DNA of 20,043 nt. Source: a virus. Below, piece after piece: positions 1,460 through 20,043 of this stretch. The DNA lies in IMG/VR virus record IMGVR_UViG_3300025133_000767, positions 1 through 20,043 of that record; one strand, given 5' to 3'. The notes under the pieces are model-generated. The model did not search any database, was not told the origin of the DNA, and saw only the letters and a program-made list of their open reading frames with translations. The first letter of the stretch is position 1. Each line of letters begins with the position of its first letter. Made by a program: the position numbers and the translations under genes.

Positions 1460-1655
1460 TGTAGGTAAAGATTATAAAAACGACGCCATGCATTACGCTG
1501 TTGGTCAAGAAGTATATGGTGGACATAAAATATGTGATATAATAGAAGAAGATGATAAGTTTTCTGTTTATATTAGAAAAGATAAAGATGTCTTACCATG
1601 GAAAGACTTTAACAAAAATATGGCGGTATCTGTAGAGTATAATCTAGAATACTAA
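1434..1655 (+). CDS. Conserved small phage protein, unknown function
   Basis: A 73-residue protein starting MAKLIRKISVGKDYKNDAMH. Features seen: a basic N-terminus, 'AMHYAVGQEVYGGHKICDII', then alternating short strands (FSVYIRKDK, AVSVEYNLEY), suggesting a small beta or alpha/beta domain. I have the impression of similar small proteins just upstream of packaging genes in uncultured marine phages, but no function is known to me. It starts inside the previous gene (26-base overlap, different frame). Its TAA shares one base with the ATG of the next gene (TAATG at 1653-1657), so translation is probably coupled along this block. Confidence 0.7.
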   Translation: MAKLIRKISVGKDYKNDAMHYAVGQEVYGGHKICDIIEEDDKFSVYIRKDKDVLPWKDFNKNMAVSVEYNLEY

Positions 1656-2248
1656 TGAAAAGTGTTTACAACTTTGTTGTAACGCCAATTGGAGATAGAT
1701 ATAACAATACTAAAAAAGTTGAAGGTGGTGATCTTATATTAAACACTGAGATTTACAATCATCAATTTGTAAATAGAGTTGCAAAAGTTATATCAACCCC
1801 TATAGTTGGTGATACAGATATTAAAACTGGAGATGAGGTAATAGTACATCACAATGTGTTTCGTAGGTGGCATAACGTAAAAGGTATAGAGAAAAATAGT
1901 AGGAGTTACTTTAATGAGTCTACTTACTTAATAACTCAGGACCAAATATTTCTATATAAAAGAAACGGTGAGTGGAATGCTCCAAAAGGATTTTGTTTTA
2001 TAAAACCCTTAAAAGAAATAGATGACCCACTTAACGTGAATATAGAAAGACCTTTAATAGGTATCGTCAAATATTCAGATGGTACTGTTAAGGTTAACGA
2101 GTTAGTTGGTTTTAAGCCAAGTAGTGAATATGAGTTTATAATCGACGAAGAACGATTATATAGAGTTTTATCTAATTTTATCACGATCAAATATGAATAT
2201 CAAGGAGACGAAGAAGAATATAATCCAAGCTGGGCAAAAAGCAGTTGA
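1655..2248 (+). CDS. Probable tandem GroES-like (Cpn10-fold) protein
   Basis: A 197-residue protein. Residues 7-101 follow the GroES pattern in order: a first strand (NFVVTPIGDR), a GGDLIL block at 24-29 in the place of the GGIVL mobile loop that contacts GroEL, VAKVIS (42-47) like GEVLAVG, DIKTGDEVIVHHN (55-67) like VKVGDIVIFND, and a closing YLITQDQIFLY (91-101) like VLIMSESDILAIV. Residues about 113-190 look like a weaker second copy: FIKPLKE, PLIGIVKYSDG, VKVNELVGF, YEFIIDEERLYRV, FITIKY. Phage co-chaperonins such as T4 gp31 replace GroES so that host GroEL can fold the capsid protein; a similar role is inferred here. Bacterial GroES is about 95 residues, so 197 fits a doubled form. TAATG coupling links it to the gene before, and its last 56 bases overlap the next gene. 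Confidence 0.55.
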   Translation: MKSVYNFVVTPIGDRYNNTKKVEGGDLILNTEIYNHQFVNRVAKVISTPIVGDTDIKTGDEVIVHHNVFRRWHNVKGIEKNSRSYFNESTYLITQDQIFLYKRNGEWNAPKGFCFIKPLKEIDDPLNVNIERPLIGIVKYSDGTVKVNELVGFKPSSEYEFIIDEERLYRVLSNFITIKYEYQGDEEEYNPSWAKSS

Positions 2249-10826: not shown

Positions 10827-11561
10827 ATGGTAAGTATAGATACAATATATCAAAAAGTTTTAGCATTTGCTAACAAAGAGCAGAGAGGATATGTAACTCC
10901 TCAAGAGTTTAATCTATTTGCCGACCAAGCACAAATGGAAATATTTGAGCAATATTTTTATGATATAAATCAGTTTAGAAGAGTACCAGGTAACAACCAC
11001 ATGTATTCTGACATGCTTAGTAATTTACAAGAAAAAATTGATTTGTTTAATAAAGATTTATCCAATGCAGAAATTAACAATAATTACGGTGATATAAAAT
11101 TAAACACTACTATACCTGATTTATATAGGTTAGGTAGGGTGAAAGTTACATACGCGGGACATGAAGAAGCAATGGCTGAATATATAGATTGGAAAGAGAA
11201 TATATTATATGGAAAATCACCATTAGCAAAATGGTCAAAAAATAGACCTGTATATAATAAGTGGACTAATCAAGCTGGTGATGATCTATTAAAAATACGA
11301 CCTTATCCGGAAGATGGCGTAGATATAGTGCGAATATTCTATACAAAAAAACCATCAAAACCAAATTGGGGTTATGTAGTTGTAAATGATAAACCACTTT
11401 ATAATGCAGATACATCAACTAATTTTGAACTACATCCCGCAGAAGGACCTGAATTAGTATATAAAATACTAACATTTGCTGGTATTGCAATTGAAAAACC
11501 TGGGTTAGTACAAGTAGCTGCGGGATTAGAAGCAGGTAAAATTCAACAAGAAAAACAATAA
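10827..11561 (+). CDS. Probable head-tail connector / ring protein
   Basis: A 244-residue protein. The N-terminal helical part (IDTIYQKVLAFANKEQRGYV; TPQEFNLFADQAQMEIFEQY) is followed by a central beta part with IPDLYRLGRVKVTYAGHE and DDLLKIRPYPEDGVDIVRIF, and a C-terminal helical segment with HPAEGPELVYKILTFAGIAI. The mix of a helical bundle plus a beta domain and the position between capsid and tail-hub genes fit an adaptor that binds below the portal, like P22 gp4-type or crAss-like ring proteins. The sequence type is familiar from uncultured marine phages, where it lies in the same position. The start follows an A-rich leader (AACAATAATAAAAAATAATGG) with no Shine-Dalgarno. The next gene begins four bases after its TAA. 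Confidence 0.7.
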   Translation: MVSIDTIYQKVLAFANKEQRGYVTPQEFNLFADQAQMEIFEQYFYDINQFRRVPGNNHMYSDMLSNLQEKIDLFNKDLSNAEINNNYGDIKLNTTIPDLYRLGRVKVTYAGHEEAMAEYIDWKENILYGKSPLAKWSKNRPVYNKWTNQAGDDLLKIRPYPEDGVDIVRIFYTKKPSKPNWGYVVVNDKPLYNADTSTNFELHPAEGPELVYKILTFAGIAIEKPGLVQVAAGLEAGKIQQEKQ

Positions 11562-11565
11562 ATAA

Positions 11566-12930
11566 ATGGGATTATTAGATGGTACTACACAACAACAATA
11601 TTATCAAGGAAATGACTATGGTAATTATCAATTTACCTCTTTAGATGATATTATAACACAGTTTCAAATAGCTTATGTTGGTGAAGATAAAATTATATCT
11701 AAAATAAAAAGAACTGATATAGCTTTTCACGCACAACGAGCTATGCAAGAGTTATCTTTTGACACTTTTAAATCTATTAAATCTCAAGAAATAAAAGTAC
11801 CGGCAACATTACAAATGATACTTCCACAAGACTATGTTAATTATACAAAAATAAATTGGGTGGATTCTGCTGGTATAAAACATCCATTATATCCTACAAG
11901 TAGAACTTCAAACCCGCCAAATCCATTACAAAATTCTGATGGGGACTTTAAATTAACTGCAGTTGGTACGTTAGATGATGGTTCTAGCAGTATAGAATTA
12001 GATGCAGAATATAAAGACATTCAAGTAGGTATGGTTGTTAGTGGTCCATATATACCAGTAACTCCAGATACTGATTATGGTAGTTCTAAAACTTACGTTG
12101 CATCTACATCCAACTCTAGTAGTATTACTACTATAACAATAGAGGATGCTGATGGAGTAGCGGTATTACCAACTGAAAGTAACTCAGGGACAACTTTAAC
12201 ATTTGAAACAAGAAAACGTGATGGAGGAGGTTTAATTTTAGAAAAACAATCTTCTCATGTAGTAGAAAACTTATCTTGGAACCTTACTGATTATAAAATA
12301 ACAGGAACCGCTTCTGAATTAACTGATATAGAAGTTGGTATGTTAGTATCTCATGATAATTTTCCAAAAGGAACAACAGTAACAAACATTTATACAACCA
12401 CTATAGTTGTATCCGAGTTACCAGATACAGCTGTAAGTTCTGGTGGTGAAGTAACTTTTATATCTCCAGATTCTGAGTCTGATACTTGGTCTAGTTATAA
12501 ATCTACGACTCCATCTGAAAATAATAATGACGATTATGAAGATGATACATATTGGCCTATAGACGGGGAAAGATATGGATTAGATCCTCAACACGCTCAA
12601 GCTAATGGTTCGTTTTACATAGATAATAATACTGGAAAAATACACTTTAGTTCTAACATATCTGGAGAAACCGTAATATTAGATTACATAAGCGATGGTC
12701 TTGGTACAGATGCAGAAATGCAAGTACACAAATTTGCAGAAGAAGCAATGTATAAATCTATACTTTGTGCTATAATGTCTGCTAAAGCTAATGTTGGTGG
12801 AAGACAATTAGCATATTATAAAAAAGATAAATTTGCAGCTGTGAGAACAGCAAAATTAAGGTTATCAAATTTAAAATTAGAAGAATTAACTCAAACGTTA
12901 CGAGGTAAATCTAAACATATAAAACACTAG
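11566..12930 (+). CDS. Probable ring / head-tail adaptor protein with beta-repeat insertion
   Basis: A 454-residue protein. The N-terminal part (about 1-125) has a Gln/Tyr-rich start, then FTSLDDIITQFQIAYVGEDK, KRTDIAFHAQRAMQELSFDT, and MILPQDYVNYTKINWVD. The C-terminal part (about 330-454) has RYGLDPQHAQANGSFYIDNN, KIHFSSNISGETVILDYISD, GTDAEMQVHKFAEEAMYKSI and a basic end (LRGKSKHIKH). These two parts are the conserved ring-type core. Between them lie two beta-rich repeats, residues about 127-217 and 237-301, each containing a 'VGM.VS...P' turn and a T-rich strand pair. Those look inserted. It would stack under the portal and carry the muzzle-type protein encoded next, three bases downstream. 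The role is inferred from position and resemblance to uncultured marine and crAss-like phage proteins. Confidence 0.72.
   Translation: MGLLDGTTQQQYYQGNDYGNYQFTSLDDIITQFQIAYVGEDKIISKIKRTDIAFHAQRAMQELSFDTFKSIKSQEIKVPATLQMILPQDYVNYTKINWVDSAGIKHPLYPTSRTSNPPNPLQNSDGDFKLTAVGTLDDGSSSIELDAEYKDIQVGMVVSGPYIPVTPDTDYGSSKTYVASTSNSSSITTITIEDADGVAVLPTESNSGTTLTFETRKRDGGGLILEKQSSHVVENLSWNLTDYKITGTASELTDIEVGMLVSHDNFPKGTTVTNIYTTTIVVSELPDTAVSSGGEVTFISPDSESDTWSSYKSTTPSENNNDDYEDDTYWPIDGERYGLDPQHAQANGSFYIDNNTGKIHFSSNISGETVILDYISDGLGTDAEMQVHKFAEEAMYKSILCAIMSAKANVGGRQLAYYKKDKFAAVRTAKLRLSNLKLEELTQTLRGKSKHIKH
11944..12216 (+). repeat. VGM-type beta repeat A (protein-level)
   Basis: Encodes residues about 127-217 of the 454-residue protein: GTLDDGSSSIELDAEYKDIQ, then VGMVVSGPYIPVTP, then SITTITIEDADG and GTTLTFETR. 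It matches repeat B in the order strand, VGM.VS, IP/FP, strand, LTF. The similarity is at protein level only. Confidence 0.55.
12274..12466 (+). repeat. VGM-type beta repeat B (protein-level)
   Basis: Encodes residues about 237-301 of the same protein: DYKITGTASELTDIEVGMLV, then SHDNFPKGTTVTNIYTTTIV and VSSGGEVTFIS. This is the more canonical form of the repeat, with the FPKGTTV turn. Confidence 0.6.
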
Positions 12931-12933
12931 TAC

Positions 12934-15900
12934 ATGCCAGAGATTAAGCATAATTTTACCGCTGGTAAAATGAATAAGGATCTCGACGAGAGACTTATTC
13001 CAAATGGAGAATATAAAGACGCGATGAATATACAAGTGTCAACTTCAGAAGGATCTGATGTTGGTACTGTTCAAAATATATTAGGTAATTCAATTGTTCC
13101 TGGACAAAACTTTATTAGTGATGATGCGGTTTGTGTTGGTAGTATTGCTGACGAAAAAAATGATAAATTATATTGGTTTATCATAAACTATGAAAATACC
13201 GAATATATAACAAATGGTACTTTTACTGGTAATGCAGATCATTGGACACACAACGGTAATCCATTAGATGGAACTGGAGGATGGGATTACGCCGATAATA
13301 ATGTTTTGGCTGTAGATGTGTTAAAATGGGATTCGTTAAAGCAAAGTCCTGTATCGATCACACATGGAGAGACATATATTATACGTGTTGAAATTTTGAA
13401 TCATACTGGTACTGGTGATTTAAGTCCAGTTATTGTTGATGAATTTGGCGGATGGACTAGGCCAATACATAGTCTTGCTGCTACTGGTGATGGGATATGG
13501 GAGTGGACGCTTGATACTAGTAAAGATTCTATAGATCAAGAAACATCTTATACAGGAAATTGGGGAAATCAAACACCGTATTCTCCAAGTCATATTTACT
13601 TTCAAAATAGGATGGAAACCGGTACTGGCGATCCTGCGACTAATAAATTAAATTGTAATATTGATAATATATCTATTACAGGTATTAATAATAGTTGTAT
13701 TATTGAATATGATACTAAAAACAATAAAGTTACACCAGTATTAGTTGACGCTAATAATACTATTTTAAAATTAGATCCTAGTAAATTAATTACGGGAATT
13801 AACATTATTGATGATTTATTATTTTGGACAGATAACAATTCTGAGCCTAAAAAAATAAATATCCAACGTTGTATACAGGGCACGGACCCGGGCGGGTTTA
13901 GAAATACAAAACTTATAAATAGTGCTCAAAATTTAGCTACTGATCCAGCTATCGGTGATGTGGTTAATATCGAAGAAGAACACGTAGCTGTCGCTAAACA
14001 ATCCCCAAAACATCCTTTAAAATTAGACTACACAACGTTTAGAGACGTTGACGGCATGTATACAGGTGTGATGAAAGTTAGTGATGGTACAGTACCATCT
14101 TCAATCTTAAATTCATCTATAGGTCATATAAATGATTTTAGTTTCTTAGAGGTTGGTGATACTTTTAGAACCGTAATAGAAACAGATATAAACAAGAGTA
14201 ATGATTTTAACTTAAGGTGGAATAATTGGTCTCCAGTAGTTATAAAAGAATTTAATGACGATATAGCCCCTTCAGTTCCAATTTCAAACTATAGAATAAA
14301 AGGTAAAATAACTGATTGGGAAGGTAATCGTTTTACTAACACTAATTTACTTTTAACAGAGAATGGTGATTTGTCAGAGGGAAGTGGCAGTACTCCAGAT
14401 CATTGGGATAATTCACAAGGTCAGTGGACTTGGGATCAAAGTGCAGGAACGTTTACGTGTAGTGGATTAGGAGCGGCAAAATATAAAAAAGTATGGAATA
14501 GTAACGACAACGGAAATATTGTAGAAGGTAAACGATACAAAGTAAAGTATGCTATTGATCCACCGATCGGAGGAAATTTAGAAGGAAAACTAGCTGTACG
14601 TTTATTTGGCAGTGGTACTGGTAATGGCGCTGCGCTTGATGGATATTATTGGAATTTAGGAAGTCATACAGCGGCAGGGGAATTTGAGTTTAGTGAAGCA
14701 AATGGCAACGAGATAGTTTGGACTAACACAGATGGGGGTTTAAGCCGTGGACCACAAGGAGAATGGACTTATGGAAGTAATACTGGAGTATACCTAAACG
14801 CTATAATGTTTGAATCACGACAAGAAGGGAGTGAGATATATCTAGGTCCAGAAACAATAAATATGAACGCAAGTAGCGTTAGTTATAGTAGCAGTCATAA
14901 TGTGAATATCGCTAATCCCGGTGGTGGTTACACTAATCCTTTTACTATTACAAATGATTCGACGATATCTTTTGATGGCGTAATGGCGACAGATATTTAT
15001 GATAACACTGCTTACAGCACCGTTTTTTTCAAAATAAACAATGTAATGGATGCTAATTTAGTGGCTGGTGAAACGTATAAGTTGGAAATGGACGTTACTA
15101 ATTTTACGTGGACTGGTGCCGGTAACGGTGTTCAAATTGAAGCTGGGATTGGGGTGTCACAAGCTTCAAGTAATTATACCAACGCAAGATTTGCCCATAC
15201 AGGAGCTACTTATGGAGTAGGGTTGGCACAAGGTGCTAGTGGTACTTATGAAGAAACTTTTACAGCAACTACCAATAAACTAGACATAAGAGTACATAAA
15301 AACGCATCTTTTGATAGTTTTACAGTATCTGTTAAGAAAGCTGAAGATCAAACTTTTAATGGTACAATACGTGATGTTTCTGTAGAAGAGATAGACGATA
15401 CCCAAGCAAGAGTTGAAATAAGAGTAGATTCTATAGATGGAGATCCACCAACTCCAATGGGTAGTGATACAGAGTTAAATTACGCTATAGATAAGTTTGA
15501 TCAAGAAGATAAACTATTTGAATTAAAATTTCCAAGATTTGCTTATAGATATAAGTACGAGGATGGCGAGTATTCTACTATGTCTCCTTTTACAGAAGTT
15601 GCTTTTATACCAGGATCTTTTGATTATCATCCTAAAAAAGGCCATAATTTAGGTATGTCAAATAACTTAAAGTCTTTAACACTAAAAGATTTTACTCGCC
15701 TACTACCTAAAGACGTAAAAAGCATCGACTTACTATATAAAGAAGAACATTCACCAAATATTTATATTGTTGACACTATAAAAGATTTAACAACTACAGA
15801 ATACAATATAGATAAAGAAACAATTAAAAATGGTTTAGTACCTTCAAATCAATTATTAAGACCTTGGGATAACGTACCTAGAAAAGCTTTAGCTCAAGAT

Positions 15901-18900
15901 GTTGTTGGTAATAGAATTGTTTATGGTAATTATTTGCAGAATTATGATTTAGTAAATAGTGTTTCAGCTTTAGATTTTGATTTAAACTTAGATGTTGATG
16001 TTATATCAAGCGAAAACAGATCTAGAGTTGGAAAAAATTCTATAAAATCATTAAGAGAGTATCAAGTTGGTGTTGTATATACAGATAAGTACGGAAGAGA
16101 AACACCTGTTTTAACAAATGCAGATGCAACAGTGAGACTTGATAAATCCGTAGCTTCTGAAGTAAATCAATTAGAAGTTAGAGTACTTGGTGAAGGTCAT
16201 CCGGTTAATATGAAATACTTTAAGTTTTTTATTAAGGATACCGGTGGAGAGTACTATAATTTAGCTATGGATCGATACTACGATGCTAAAGATGATAATA
16301 TTTGGTTAGCATTTCCTTCTACTGACAGAAACAAATTAGATATTGACGACTATTTAATACTGAAAAAAGGTGTTGGAGATGTAATTGATCCAAAAGGCAC
16401 CAATAAATGGGGTATTCCTAACATAATAAAAGAAAGAGCGGAATATAAAATACTAGACATAAAAAATGAAGCCCCTGATTTTATAAAAAGAAAGGAAACG
16501 TTAATAGCATCAATAAGGCACACGTCTAATGCTAGTCAAAAAATCTTTGTAGACGGAGATTTACCAGCGGCAAATGATATTAACTTTAAAATTGATTATG
16601 ATTTAATTCAAGACGCTTCTTTTGCTAATCTACATGAAGATTTGGGTAAAGATTCTGAGGTTGAATACCATATATCGTTAAGTAATACTGATTTAAATAG
16701 AACTTCTGATAGATACAAAGTAATACAACTAGACACTAGTGGAGTTGCTCCAAGTACATATTGGCATTTCACACTAGAAAAACCGTTTACTTCAGAGATA
16801 AATGTTTTTACTAATAATCCTTCTGGAGAAAATTCTTTTGAAATAACTGTACTTAATAATACATTCTTAAATATATACAGAACAGCCGTAGATAAATCTG
16901 CTTCTTATAAATTTGATGGGAGATTTTTTGTTAAAATATATAATGATGATGTGTTCCGAAGAGCACTGAAAGACAAACAAGATGAAGATGTTACTCCAGA
17001 ATATAAGCGTACTGGTATAGCTCGTAAGATTTATTCTTTAGAAACACACGCTGGTTCTAATCGTATTAAAAAGCATTTTGACGATAGTAGTGTAACGCAG
17101 GTGTTTAAAGACATAGCAACTAACACAACTAACTCTGGATTAAACACTAAAGTAGTTAGCAATTCAACTAACACCGGTGATTATGCCAACACTTTTCAAT
17201 GGAATCATTACTACAAAGCTACTAACGATTTTGCAAAAAGTCTTGGTACATTAAATGGTAAAAGATATGTCAAAAATACAGATACCCATATAAATGATGA
17301 AAATTTAAGGGATGAAGGCACGTGGCAAGACTACGACGCTTATTTTAGAGGAATAAATGTGAATTTAAGTGACAGTGCTCTTGAAGATCGTACCATAGAA
17401 TTAGATATACATGATAACAATAAAGATGATCAAAAATTTGCAGATGTTTGGTTTATAGATAAAGCAGTTAGTGTAGGTAATTTTCATCATAGCAATATTG
17501 CTAGTACAGATTTAGGTTGGGACGCTAATCCTTCACATACTCGTATAAATTCTATGGGATTAACTGGAACTGGTACAGGTATTGGTATATTAGAACTATC
17601 TTTTGGCGGTATACAACCTACAAGATGGTCTAGAAATTCAAATGGTTGGGAAGCTAGAGATGAAAGTTTTTTTGACTTAGGAGAACAAAATACTCACTAT
17701 TCTAAAACGGAAGCTGAATTTATAGAGCAAATTGCTATTGGTAGTCAGTTTAGATTTGCAGAAGATCCAGATCACACAATATATACTATTACTAATGTTG
17801 ACATATTTCTTAGAGCGAGGTATGAATCTTTGAACGACTATTCTAATCAAGCTAGTGGATTTGAAAATACTGGAGAGTGGGAGATTGAAAATGGACATAC
17901 ACATTTACGTTCTGTAGATTTATTTCCGTTACATGCTAAATCACGAGCTGGTGAACCTACAGGGTTTAGAATGGAAGGTGGAAATTATGTATCAAATGTT
18001 ATAGGCGGTAGTGAAAAAGTTACTGGTTATGGTTTTGAAACGGATATTGAGGTTGAAACTGGCGATGTAATATATAAAACAAGTAGTTATTTAAGACCTA
18101 GTAATTATACTAAAAATTGGAGACTTACATTAGATAAATCGTTTACAGGTAATTGGAATCCTTTAGATACTGGCAATGAAATATCTAATGGGAAGACAAT
18201 AACATTAACAGCAACAAGTGTTGCACAAGGGGTTGGAAATCAAAATTGGGTGGTAGTTGAATCTATTAAGGATAGTACTGTTACTGATCCTTACGGTAAC
18301 GCTAAAGGTAATATGCTTGAAGTTGGTATGGTATTGAAAAAATATGCATCAACTACTTTAACTACACCTGCAATTGTTTCTAAGATAGAACCGGCTCGTG
18401 GTCCAGCAACATTAGAGTTTCCTGAAGGTGAAATTCTAGACCCTTCAGGTGAAACTTTACCAATTAAAATATGGTTTAAAACATATGATGGTACAGATGA
18501 TTTTCCATCTTCTGGTGGTCGTCCTGCTGGTATTAGCGGTGGGAACACTTTAGAATTTCATCAATATCCAATGAACGGATTGAGTCCTAATTCAGCTAAA
18601 AATTTAAATTTCTTTAGAGGTGGAAAAGGTTTTGATGATAGTTCGTCTGGAAGTTTAAAATCTGGTACAGATGCTATAGGATATACTTTAGAGTGGTTAG
18701 AAGAAAAATCTGCTAACTCAGAAGAAGATATATTACCACCAAATCCAGCTATTTGGGAAACAAAACCAAAAGAGAGCACAGATTTAGATATATACTATGA
18801 AGCAACAGGACAAATTCCTATAGAAAATTTTATATCTACTCAGAGTATGCTTGATACTATCCCTATCGGATCTATAGTAGAACATTTGGGTAGTAACACT

Positions 18901-19017
18901 ATTCCTAAAGAAACTAGGGTAAAAGAAGTAGACGCTATTAATAAAACAATTACTCTAACAAACGATATAACTATAGTATCTTCAAGTTTTGCTACTCCAA
19001 CAAATAGAATAACATAA
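12934..19017 (+). CDS. Giant muzzle / tail-hub-type structural protein (N-terminal part of family)
   Basis: A 2027-residue virion protein, by far the largest here. It starts MPEIKHNFTAGKMNKDLDER, a start typical of muzzle/P22 gp10-like ('stabilisation') proteins of crAss-like and marine phages, which form the distal part of a short tail. Core landmarks: LYWFI (about 82-86) and CIIEYD (from 255), split by an insertion; LLFWTDNNSEPKKINIQRCI; FELKFPRFAYRYKYEDGEYS (862-881); GNRIVYGNYLQNYD (from 993); KYFKFFIKDTGGEYYNLAMD (about 1094-1113); FDGRFFVKIYNDD (from 1327); NPAIWETKPKESTDLDIYYE near 1937. Three CBM-like modules (about 90-253, 470-645, 650-825) interrupt the core, and a VGM-like motif sits at about 1977-2015. 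The family usually continues with the sequence found in the next ORF, so this protein looks like the larger part of a split gene. The start is three bases after the previous stop. Confidence 0.82.
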   Translation: MPEIKHNFTAGKMNKDLDERLIPNGEYKDAMNIQVSTSEGSDVGTVQNILGNSIVPGQNFISDDAVCVGSIADEKNDKLYWFIINYENTEYITNGTFTGNADHWTHNGNPLDGTGGWDYADNNVLAVDVLKWDSLKQSPVSITHGETYIIRVEILNHTGTGDLSPVIVDEFGGWTRPIHSLAATGDGIWEWTLDTSKDSIDQETSYTGNWGNQTPYSPSHIYFQNRMETGTGDPATNKLNCNIDNISITGINNSCIIEYDTKNNKVTPVLVDANNTILKLDPSKLITGINIIDDLLFWTDNNSEPKKINIQRCIQGTDPGGFRNTKLINSAQNLATDPAIGDVVNIEEEHVAVAKQSPKHPLKLDYTTFRDVDGMYTGVMKVSDGTVPSSILNSSIGHINDFSFLEVGDTFRTVIETDINKSNDFNLRWNNWSPVVIKEFNDDIAPSVPISNYRIKGKITDWEGNRFTNTNLLLTENGDLSEGSGSTPDHWDNSQGQWTWDQSAGTFTCSGLGAAKYKKVWNSNDNGNIVEGKRYKVKYAIDPPIGGNLEGKLAVRLFGSGTGNGAALDGYYWNLGSHTAAGEFEFSEANGNEIVWTNTDGGLSRGPQGEWTYGSNTGVYLNAIMFESRQEGSEIYLGPETINMNASSVSYSSSHNVNIANPGGGYTNPFTITNDSTISFDGVMATDIYDNTAYSTVFFKINNVMDANLVAGETYKLEMDVTNFTWTGAGNGVQIEAGIGVSQASSNYTNARFAHTGATYGVGLAQGASGTYEETFTATTNKLDIRVHKNASFDSFTVSVKKAEDQTFNGTIRDVSVEEIDDTQARVEIRVDSIDGDPPTPMGSDTELNYAIDKFDQEDKLFELKFPRFAYRYKYEDGEYSTMSPFTEVAFIPGSFDYHPKKGHNLGMSNNLKSLTLKDFTRLLPKDVKSIDLLYKEEHSPNIYIVDTIKDLTTTEYNIDKETIKNGLVPSNQLLRPWDNVPRKALAQDVVGNRIVYGNYLQNYDLVNSVSALDFDLNLDVDVISSENRSRVGKNSIKSLREYQVGVVYTDKYGRETPVLTNADATVRLDKSVASEVNQLEVRVLGEGHPVNMKYFKFFIKDTGGEYYNLAMDRYYDAKDDNIWLAFPSTDRNKLDIDDYLILKKGVGDVIDPKGTNKWGIPNIIKERAEYKILDIKNEAPDFIKRKETLIASIRHTSNASQKIFVDGDLPAANDINFKIDYDLIQDASFANLHEDLGKDSEVEYHISLSNTDLNRTSDRYKVIQLDTSGVAPSTYWHFTLEKPFTSEINVFTNNPSGENSFEITVLNNTFLNIYRTAVDKSASYKFDGRFFVKIYNDDVFRRALKDKQDEDVTPEYKRTGIARKIYSLETHAGSNRIKKHFDDSSVTQVFKDIATNTTNSGLNTKVVSNSTNTGDYANTFQWNHYYKATNDFAKSLGTLNGKRYVKNTDTHINDENLRDEGTWQDYDAYFRGINVNLSDSALEDRTIELDIHDNNKDDQKFADVWFIDKAVSVGNFHHSNIASTDLGWDANPSHTRINSMGLTGTGTGIGILELSFGGIQPTRWSRNSNGWEARDESFFDLGEQNTHYSKTEAEFIEQIAIGSQFRFAEDPDHTIYTITNVDIFLRARYESLNDYSNQASGFENTGEWEIENGHTHLRSVDLFPLHAKSRAGEPTGFRMEGGNYVSNVIGGSEKVTGYGFETDIEVETGDVIYKTSSYLRPSNYTKNWRLTLDKSFTGNWNPLDTGNEISNGKTITLTATSVAQGVGNQNWVVVESIKDSTVTDPYGNAKGNMLEVGMVLKKYASTTLTTPAIVSKIEPARGPATLEFPEGEILDPSGETLPIKIWFKTYDGTDDFPSSGGRPAGISGGNTLEFHQYPMNGLSPNSAKNLNFFRGGKGFDDSSSGSLKSGTDAIGYTLEWLEEKSANSEEDILPPNPAIWETKPKESTDLDIYYEATGQIPIENFISTQSMLDTIPIGSIVEHLGSNTIPKETRVKEVDAINKTITLTNDITIVSSSFATPTNRIT
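13201..13692 (+). other. Galactose-binding/CBM-like module 1 inside the muzzle-type protein
   Basis: Residues about 90-253. It opens with EYITNGTFTGNADHWTHNGN and contains a 'VSITHGETYIIRVEI' strand, the pattern of CBM4/9-type beta-sandwich modules (N-G-x-F...W, then V..G..Y.....). It separates the core strands LYWFI and CIIEYD, so it looks inserted in a loop. Fold assignment is by pattern only. Confidence 0.5.
14341..14868 (+). other. Galactose-binding/CBM-like module 2 inside the muzzle-type protein
   Basis: Residues about 470-645. It starts LLLTENGDLSEGSGSTPDHW, followed by WTWDQSAGTFTCSG, then 'NIVEGKRYKVKYAI' and a run of strands (LEGKLAVRLFGSG). It has the same order of elements as module 1 and no close DNA similarity to it. 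Confidence 0.5.
14881..15408 (+). other. Galactose-binding/CBM-like module 3 inside the muzzle-type protein
   Basis: Residues about 650-825. A strand-rich module with 'NLVAGETYKLEMDVTNFTW', then GTYEETFTATTNKLDIRVHK and 'FDSFTVSVKK', ending at FNGTIRDVSVEEID before the core resumes (ARVEIRVDS). The closing 'I.DVSVEEI' is a usual last strand of such modules. The N-terminal N-G-x-F signature is weaker here. Confidence 0.45.
18862..18978 (+). repeat. VGM-like beta motif at the muzzle C-terminus (protein-level)
   Basis: Residues about 1977-2015, PIGSIVEHLGSNTIPKETRV then KEVDAINKTITLTNDITI. It follows the same scheme as the repeats in the 454-residue protein (G..V......IP..T.V..I....I.L). It lies immediately before the stop. 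Confidence 0.45.
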
Positions 19018-19038
19018 ACTAATTAATAAAAGTAACAC
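19018..19038 (+). other. Gap with three further in-frame TAA codons between the muzzle-type ORFs
   Basis: After the TAA at 19015-19017 the same frame reads ACT AAT TAA TAA AAG TAA CAC and then ATG at 19039. Four in-frame stops within 21 bases rule out simple readthrough. No hairpin or Shine-Dalgarno is seen; the A-rich leader resembles others in the window. Confidence 0.8.
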
Positions 19039-20043
19039 ATGACAGGTTTTTTAAATCCATTAAGAAATATTCATGACGGTGATTGGCTTAAAATTACCCG
19101 TCCAGATTATAGTGTTATCTATGTTAAAATAGAAGATACTAATATGGGTAGCACGAGTGTAAATCACAGTGATACTTTTACAATAGATACTATTAATCCT
19201 CATAAAGCGGCCCATAAATTAGATTGGTCAAATTGTTATTCTTTTGGAAATGGTGTTGAATCTAATAGAATTTCTGATAATTTTAACACACCACGTGTAA
19301 CGCCTGGGGTAAAAGTATCAACGGTTTTTGAAGATTATAAAGAAGAATATAGAAAATACGGTTTAATATATTCTGGAATTTATAATTCTATAAGTAATAC
19401 AAATCGTTTAAATCAATTTATACAAGCAGAGAAAATTACAAAAGATATAAATCCTATATATGGTAGTATACAAAAACTACACACAAGAGATACAGATTTA
19501 ATAGCTCTTTGTGAAGATAAAGTTTTAAGAATCTTAGCAAATAAAGACGCTGTATATAACGCAGATGGAAAACCACAATTAACAGCTAATGAAAACGTGT
19601 TAGGACAAGCAGTACCTTTTGTGGGTGAATTTGGAATATCTAAAAATCCAGAATCATTTGCGAGTGAAAGTTATAGAACTTATTTTACAGATAAACAAAG
19701 AGGTGCGGTAATGAGGTTGTCAAAAGACGGGTTAACACCTATTTCAATGCATGGTATGAAAGATTGGTTTAGGGATAATTTGTCTACTACTAGAGTGAAC
19801 TTATTAGGTGAAGATAATTTTTCTTCAAATGATAATTGGAATCACAATAGTACAACTAGTAATATTTATATAAACGATGGAGTAGCGACATTTGGTTATT
19901 ATAATAGTTACATACATAGTAATCAAGCGTTTAGGATAGCGGGTTTCCGCAAAAATAATGTACTAGAAATTGGGAAAAAATATAGATTACAATTTGATAT
20001 TACTAGTCACAGTGGTTACAGTGAAGAATCGGGAGGATTTGCA
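19039..20043 (+). CDS. Muzzle / tail-hub-type protein, C-terminal part of family (3' partial)
   Basis: The frame is open from ATG 19039 to the window end (335 codons) and truncated there. It starts MTGFLNPLRNIHDGDWLKIT. Residues about 65-78 read NCYSFGNGVESNRI. Then come YRKYGLIYSGIYNSISNTNR, FIQAEKITKDINPIYGSIQK, LIALCEDKVLRILANKDAVY, PFVGEFGISKNPESFASESY, and YFTDKQRGAVMRLSKDGLTP (215-234) leading to HGMKDWFRDNL. As I remember them, these blocks lie in the C-terminal half of the same marine muzzle-type proteins whose N-terminal part is encoded just upstream. From residue 255 (LLGEDNFSSNDNWNH) a fourth CBM-like module begins. The ORF is in the same frame as its upstream partner but separated by four TAA codons. 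It probably assembles with that protein in the tail tip. Confidence 0.8.
   Translation, partial: MTGFLNPLRNIHDGDWLKITRPDYSVIYVKIEDTNMGSTSVNHSDTFTIDTINPHKAAHKLDWSNCYSFGNGVESNRISDNFNTPRVTPGVKVSTVFEDYKEEYRKYGLIYSGIYNSISNTNRLNQFIQAEKITKDINPIYGSIQKLHTRDTDLIALCEDKVLRILANKDAVYNADGKPQLTANENVLGQAVPFVGEFGISKNPESFASESYRTYFTDKQRGAVMRLSKDGLTPISMHGMKDWFRDNLSTTRVNLLGEDNFSSNDNWNHNSTTSNIYINDGVATFGYYNSYIHSNQAFRIAGFRKNNVLEIGKKYRLQFDITSHSGYSEESGGFA
19801..20043 (+). other. Galactose-binding/CBM-like module 4 (partial)
   Basis: Residues 255-335 of the last ORF: LLGEDNFSSNDNWNHNSTTS, then INDGVATFGYYNSYIHSNQA, and 'VLEIGKKYRLQFDITSHSG'. It begins directly after the conserved KDWFRDNL block, so it appears inserted or appended at a domain edge. 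It is cut by the window end. Confidence 0.5.

Follow-up and report, generated by a model that had tools for sequence, protein, structure and literature searches.

Phage muzzles and carbohydrate-binding modules

In the crassvirus structure the muzzle is a hexamer built from a beta-propeller, a pair of Ig-like domains and a distal domain that has been proposed to touch the cell, and variation in the length of crassvirus muzzles through insertions has been noted (PMC10172136). Structural work has so far only proposed that the muzzle tip takes part in attachment. In lactococcal 936 phages, carbohydrate-binding module (CBM) domains from proteins of the tail and neck bound to host cells when fused to GFP (PMC6669499). 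Here we describe a muzzle gene in which CBM-like modules are found at fixed positions within an otherwise conserved core.

The window and its relatives

The window analysed here is the whole of a 20,043-base virus record, a fragment whose end falls inside the muzzle gene. It comes from a relative of Cellulophaga phi38:1/phi13:2, a tailed phage, and encodes, from left to right, a holin, a 261-aa protein, small proteins, a GroES-like co-chaperonin, the large terminase, the portal, a probable scaffold, the capsid protein, three more head-tail proteins and the muzzle. The co-chaperonin (window 1655-2248) matches PHROG 13932 at 5.6e-18; chaperonin cpn10 is also listed as a Pervagoviridae core gene. 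Cultured relatives comprise Cellulophaga phages phi38:1 (Pervagoviridae) and phi13:2 and phi19:3 (both Pachyviridae), Tenacibaculum phage Gundel_1, Maribacter phage Panino and the Flavobacterium elemo phages. Their hosts are Flavobacteriaceae, and several are from seawater. Homologues were collected from viral contigs plus seven phage genomes (individual relatives carry L numbers below), and 88 muzzles were aligned.

A muzzle split over two ORFs

The identification of the last two ORFs as a muzzle, made in a first-pass annotation of the sequence, is borne out by profile searches. The first ORF (12934-19017, + strand, 2027 aa) matches PHROG 14478 at 3.3e-75 and has homologues among the structural proteins of phi38:1, phi13:2 and the elemo phages, where they are encoded in a single ORF, and the second (19039-20043, + strand, 335 aa before it runs off the contig) matches positions 903-1098 of the same PHROG at 2.4e-51. 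The Pfam family crAss_MUZ_C matches C-terminal segments in 53 of 55 homologues (best 3.2e-11); the window's own counterpart of this segment lies past the contig end.

The two ORFs share a reading frame, are separated by four TAA stops (window 19015-19038) and represent one muzzle interrupted by several stops. An identical split is seen in L010, L013, L015, L016 and L021, which together with the window form one supported clade in the core tree. Panino (L004) also has two muzzle ORFs but the break is at a different place. Stop-codon reassignment was considered as the cause of the split and is ruled out by the four TAA codons between the ORFs and by the relatives that are split alike.

Muzzle length among the 88 homologues ranges from about 950 aa (Panino main ORF) to 3,765 aa, with a common core of about 1,200 columns. 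C-terminal expansions of more than 1,000 aa follow the KDWFRDN motif in L026, L036, L062 and others. Those C-terminal segments that were scanned contain GC...NY..A...DGSC repeats and, in some cases, fn3, cadherin-like or bacterial Ig domains. A profile search of the PDB with two muzzle-core profiles matched no solved muzzle, these being too distant or below the sensitivity of the search, and a single-sequence search of the PDB with the window ORFs gave no match.

Three sockets in the muzzle core

Occupancy in the 88-homologue alignment is about 0.9-1.0 in the muzzle core but shows two gaps, with values of 0.15-0.5 over the greater part of muzzle aa 91-255 and of 0.02-0.3 over the greater part of aa 481-825. 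The first of these gaps corresponds to a socket (socket 1, muzzle aa 87-269; 13192-13740, + strand) formed by the loop that joins a pair of core strands (LYWFI ... VLVD), where the window carries module 1. Relatives with an empty site 1 have 16-31 aa at this position (66 in two rows), with further length classes at about 110-230 aa (one unit) and about 290-460 aa (two units). Socket 2 (muzzle aa 461-829; 14314-15420, + strand), where modules 2 and 3 stand in tandem, measures 0-70 aa in 75 rows, about 165-230 aa in nine and about 370-410 aa in four, the window among them. Socket sizes are thus stepwise, as would fit the absence of a module or the presence of one or two. A third site follows KDWFRDN; in 69 rows it is empty, with at most 40 aa before the next core motif, and in L010, L024 and L052 it holds 206-222 aa.

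All four stretches singled out by the first-pass annotation, which had placed them at the edges of core blocks, fall in these gaps. Two of the sequence blocks by which it had marked the edges do less well: NRFTNTN lies mostly outside the core, whose last stretch there is about GKITDW, and CIIEYD is only partly conserved.

Individual junctions can be compared directly with those of relatives in which a site is empty. Where the window has 183 residues at site 1, L019 and L025 have 18-24, and where it has 369 at site 2 they have 11-18. At the third site, NLLGED... comes right after KDWFRDN in the window and L010; L013 continues directly with LKLGNKLIGSYDDRNDEYN. L013 has the core nearest to that of the window (79% identity over 819 columns) and carries one module at site 2 but none at site 1 or the third site. 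The existence of close relatives without individual modules supports the view that the modules are insertions. Ig-like domains are inserted into the propeller of muzzle cores themselves (PMC10172136), and the stretches might be read in the same way, as parts of the core fold (a crass or IG2 domain). Relatives with 60-79% identical cores wholly lack one or more of the stretches, however, and the same family is present in other genes; with sockets empty in so many relatives, this reading is ruled out for practical purposes and we give it next to no credence.

The core tree requires at least 16 state changes at site 1 and at least seven at site 2. The modules also diverge faster than the muzzle core: between the window and L010 the core is 77% identical, while the modules are 63%, 43% and 30% identical. 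The sequence flanking site 1 (KLYWFI ... ITGINIIDDLLFWTDN) appears to resemble propeller strands, which would make a hairpin loop plausible at this position, and the socket loops may well lie on the outer surface of the muzzle.

Modules 1-3 are a single protein family

To define the module family, we used an iterated HMM seeded with module 1, with every sequence also present in reversed form as a decoy. The HMM gathered 40 copies and no reversed decoy fell below 1e-4. Module 1 itself (muzzle aa 88-256; 13195-13701, + strand) matches the family HMM at 1.1e-32, module 2 (aa 467-649; 14332-14880, + strand) at 1e-22 and module 3 (aa 648-830; 14875-15423, + strand) at 1.2e-19; in the last round of the search modules 2 and 3, which share a protein with the seed, were recovered at 4.7e-17 and 8.8e-16. 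A first-round model, built from module 1 of the window and L010 only, already found L045's upstream tail protein (6e-40). Single-sequence searches tie each module mainly to L010, and a scan of the collection with module 1 found only L010's contig and L094, while modules 2 and 3 found no relatives in that scan.

Profile-profile comparison using hhalign relates module 1 to module 2 (E 4.5e-6, probability 87) and to module 3 (E 1.5e-6, probability 90), with controls against unrelated insert families giving 0.04 and 0.47. By these sequence comparisons, modules 1-3 are one protein family with a common ancestry, confirming for these three the shared pattern that the first-pass annotation had described in four stretches. 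For module 4 (19789-20043, + strand), an insert after KDWFRDNL of which only the N-terminal 85 aa precede the contig end, the profile-profile scores are weak (E 7e-4 to 4e-3, probability 9-27). Its only matching relatives are L010, L052 and L024 (1e-25 to 1e-17); of these, L052 has a copy that the family HMM finds at 3.4e-4. Module 4 is therefore a likely, rather than a certain, member of the family.

At the protein level, modules 1 and 3 are 28% identical (142 aa) and modules 1 and 2 are 22% identical (94 aa), while at the DNA level nothing beyond short AT-rich matches was found among the modules. This agrees with the earlier argument that they are not the products of a recent tandem duplication. 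An old tandem duplication could still lie at the origin of modules 1-3, because the three are homologous and only not recent copies of one another.

Likeness to carbohydrate-binding modules

Evidence that the modules resemble CBMs, as had been suggested from the sequence pattern, comes from profile searches and from structure prediction. When the 40-row family profile was compared with PDB sequences, the six best matches were 4d0q (3.2e-8), 1gu3 (3.1e-4), 1ulo (3.2e-4) and, at E 0.03-0.05, 2cov, 4mgs and 4qpw, all of them CBMs or other chains of polysaccharide-degrading enzymes. A broad family profile is needed for this signal, as a nine-row profile matched the PDB only weakly (4d0q at 0.62). 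Scans of the insert segments against Pfam, NCBIfam and PHROG identified no significant CBM family, with Pfam single-sequence matches to CBM_4_9 (0.035) and DUF642 (0.011) falling short of significance.

An AlphaFold2 model of module 1 built from the 40-row alignment is essentially all-beta (pLDDT 82.7, pTM 0.81), as expected of a CBM4/70-like jelly roll. Foldseek matches of this model in the PDB are mostly to CBM sandwiches: top matches include CBM4 (2.5e-4, probability 1.0), CBM86, CBM6, CBM29, CBM16, CBM35 and the hyaluronan-binding module 4d0q. Most have a probability near 1, with modest TM-scores (about 0.3-0.55) and rmsd values mostly of 6-10 Å. Against predicted viral proteins, the same model matches many phage structural and tail proteins. 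While module 1 alone was modelled well, a model of muzzle aa 1-868, spanning modules 1-3, was of low confidence (pLDDT 62.9, pTM 0.38); it too matches the CBM70 module 4d0q (probability 0.96, 141 columns), which we take as weak support.

Taken together, these results lead us to think that modules 1-3, and probably module 4, are CBM4/CBM70-like beta-sandwiches carried in muzzle loops at three fixed sockets, where they are gained, lost, doubled and exchanged among relatives, and that they probably bind glycans. The beta-sandwich fold, it should be said, also serves purposes besides sugar binding. The modules could be real inserted beta-sandwiches that act as structural or protein-binding decorations (spacers, stabilisers or docking sites) and bind no sugar. 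No conserved set of ligand-contacting residues is visible in the family, the only near-invariant columns being Y63 and G76, which look structural; insert families with no CBM match fill the same sockets; and the fn3, cadherin-like and bacterial Ig domains in the C-terminal segments of relatives are of types that often act as spacers. Nevertheless, among solved structures the closest sequence relatives are CBMs and not Ig or fn3 domains, and gain and loss between cores that are 79% identical speaks against a needed structural role, and we regard a purely structural function as unlikely, if worth keeping in mind.

A variant of the glycan-binding explanation has the modules recognise environmental polysaccharides of an algal or exopolymer matrix instead of the host envelope, with virions gathering where their hosts feed. 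Folds of this family are typically found in enzymes that act on plant and algal polysaccharides, agar- and porphyran-binding modules are present in the Foldseek list, and the flavobacterial, in part marine, origin of the cultured relatives fits with this. A position at the tail tip, however, speaks more for a part in adsorption, and we consider this variant rather improbable.

A module family shared between structural genes

The ORF directly upstream of the muzzle gene (11566-12930, + strand; PHROG 13977, 2.2e-39) has a socket of its own. Its position in the gene order suggests a ring or adaptor protein; searches of Pfam and, by profile, of the PDB gave no relevant match, to a crassvirus ring protein or otherwise. 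The socket (aa 147-304 of the window ORF) has two states with no intermediates: 17 rows are empty (0-25 aa) and 68 carry an insert of 128-279 aa. In the window it is filled by an insert (12007-12474, + strand) with 'VGMxVsG..iP.gTxV' repeats that matches no family searched, is unrelated to the CBM-like family by profile comparison and, by clustering and alignment, belongs to a family seen only in this upstream gene.

Clustering of inserts gave four main families. Three of these are confined to one location, being restricted to the upstream gene (33 members, including that of the window), to site 1 (33) or again to the upstream gene (22). The CBM-like family, by contrast, occupies the upstream-gene socket 13 times, site 1 nine times and site 2 in 13 of 13 filled cases. 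It is also present in a third structural gene in one phage, L094, where the homologue (L094 2331-4145) of window ORF 10827-11561 is about 600 aa in length instead of about 240 and has two CBM-like modules inserted; the L094 muzzle contains several more. One module family is thus common to three structural genes of these phages (the muzzle, the upstream tail gene in 13 relatives and the third gene in L094), which is a new observation.

A tree of the 40 modules requires at least 10 changes of socket, and one supported clade brings together modules from site 1 (L049), a C-terminal part (L018) and the upstream gene (L041). Placing all upstream-gene copies in one clade was rejected (p-AU 0.03). These results provide moderate evidence that CBM-like modules have moved between genes, moderate because the branches of the module tree are long. 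It is conceivable, although we put this forward tentatively and as slightly less than an even bet, that a single pool of CBM-like modules supplies interchangeable adhesion cartridges to several virion genes of one lineage. Shared subfamilies are present at muzzle sites 1 and 2, in the C-terminal part of the muzzle, in the upstream tail protein and in the third structural protein, and recombination would let binding specificity pass from gene to gene on unchanged cores.

Downstream genes and tail fibres

It had also been proposed that sugar-binding modules on the muzzle take the place of separate tail fibres, no fibre gene being visible in the window. The latter is true but carries little meaning because the contig stops inside the muzzle gene, and the replacement of fibres finds no support: downstream of its muzzle, L013 encodes a 186-aa protein (L013 13333-13893) that matches the PHROG families short tail fiber protein (6.9e-25) and tail fiber adhesin (6.9e-21). 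Directly after the muzzle, a 540-620 aa protein of no known family is found in L010 (18870-20732), L013 (11653-13281) and L018 (12397-14016), the L010 protein having 'VGDRVeG.GIp..sTV'-type repeats.

A possible role in attachment

The muzzle core tolerates CBM-like modules at three fixed sockets, and these modules may bind glycans of the host surface or the surrounding matrix, a suggestion based on sequence, predicted fold and analogy. Were the muzzle hexameric, as in phiCrAss001, four modules per chain would place 24 binding sites at the tail tip. Multivalency of this kind could turn weak binding into strong and hold the tail tip at the surface, after which a conserved part of the muzzle would trigger ejection. 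Quick turnover of modules on a stable core could then represent adaptation to varying host polysaccharides. We infer multivalent, glycan-directed attachment from the structure of the crassvirus muzzle (PMC10172136) and from the CBM precedent in 936 phages (PMC6669499).

The locus offers a concrete and testable place where muzzle-bearing Bacteroidota phages may encode recognition of surface or matrix sugars, with empty and filled sockets in cores about 79% identical providing natural controls. If the modules do bind glycans, the set of modules seen in metagenomes could serve as a signal of host range.

Comparison with known systems

The window's protein shares with the phiCrAss001 muzzle gp44 (PMC10172136) a place at the tail tip, the crAss_MUZ_C domain (as judged from the C-termini of its homologues) and variation in length driven by insertions, and phi13:2, a relative of the window, serves as an outgroup in that study. 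It differs in being longer and in being split over two ORFs, and the text of PMC10172136 contains no carbohydrate-related term. Among solved proteins, CBM70 of pneumococcal hyaluronate lyase (4d0q) and CBM4 of Cellulomonas fimi endoglucanase C (1gu3, 1ulo) are the best profile-sequence matches to the modules and resemble their predicted beta-sandwich, but these CBMs are linked to enzymes and are only about 10-18% identical to the module in structural alignment.

Putative sugar-binding domains have been seen in other Bacteroidota phage proteins, with BACON and other lectin-like domains present in the tail spikes of crAss-like phages (PMC10136315) and in some marine flavophage contigs (PMC8776804). 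These belong to another domain family than the modules described here and are found in other carrier proteins. Closer in organisation are the Dit, major tail and neck passage proteins of lactococcal 936 phages (PMC6669499), in which, as in the present case, optional CBM-like modules occur in several virion structural proteins and, in 936 phages, some of them bind host cells. The 936 phages, however, are long-tailed, infect Gram-positive hosts and use BppA-type and other modules, whereas here the modules are CBM4/70-like and sit in a muzzle, the phages are relatives of Bacteroidota phages, and there are sockets in upstream genes as well as three in the muzzle. Phage tails decorated with CBMs are, therefore, already known, and it is the shared use of one module family across structural genes that adds interest to the phages described here.
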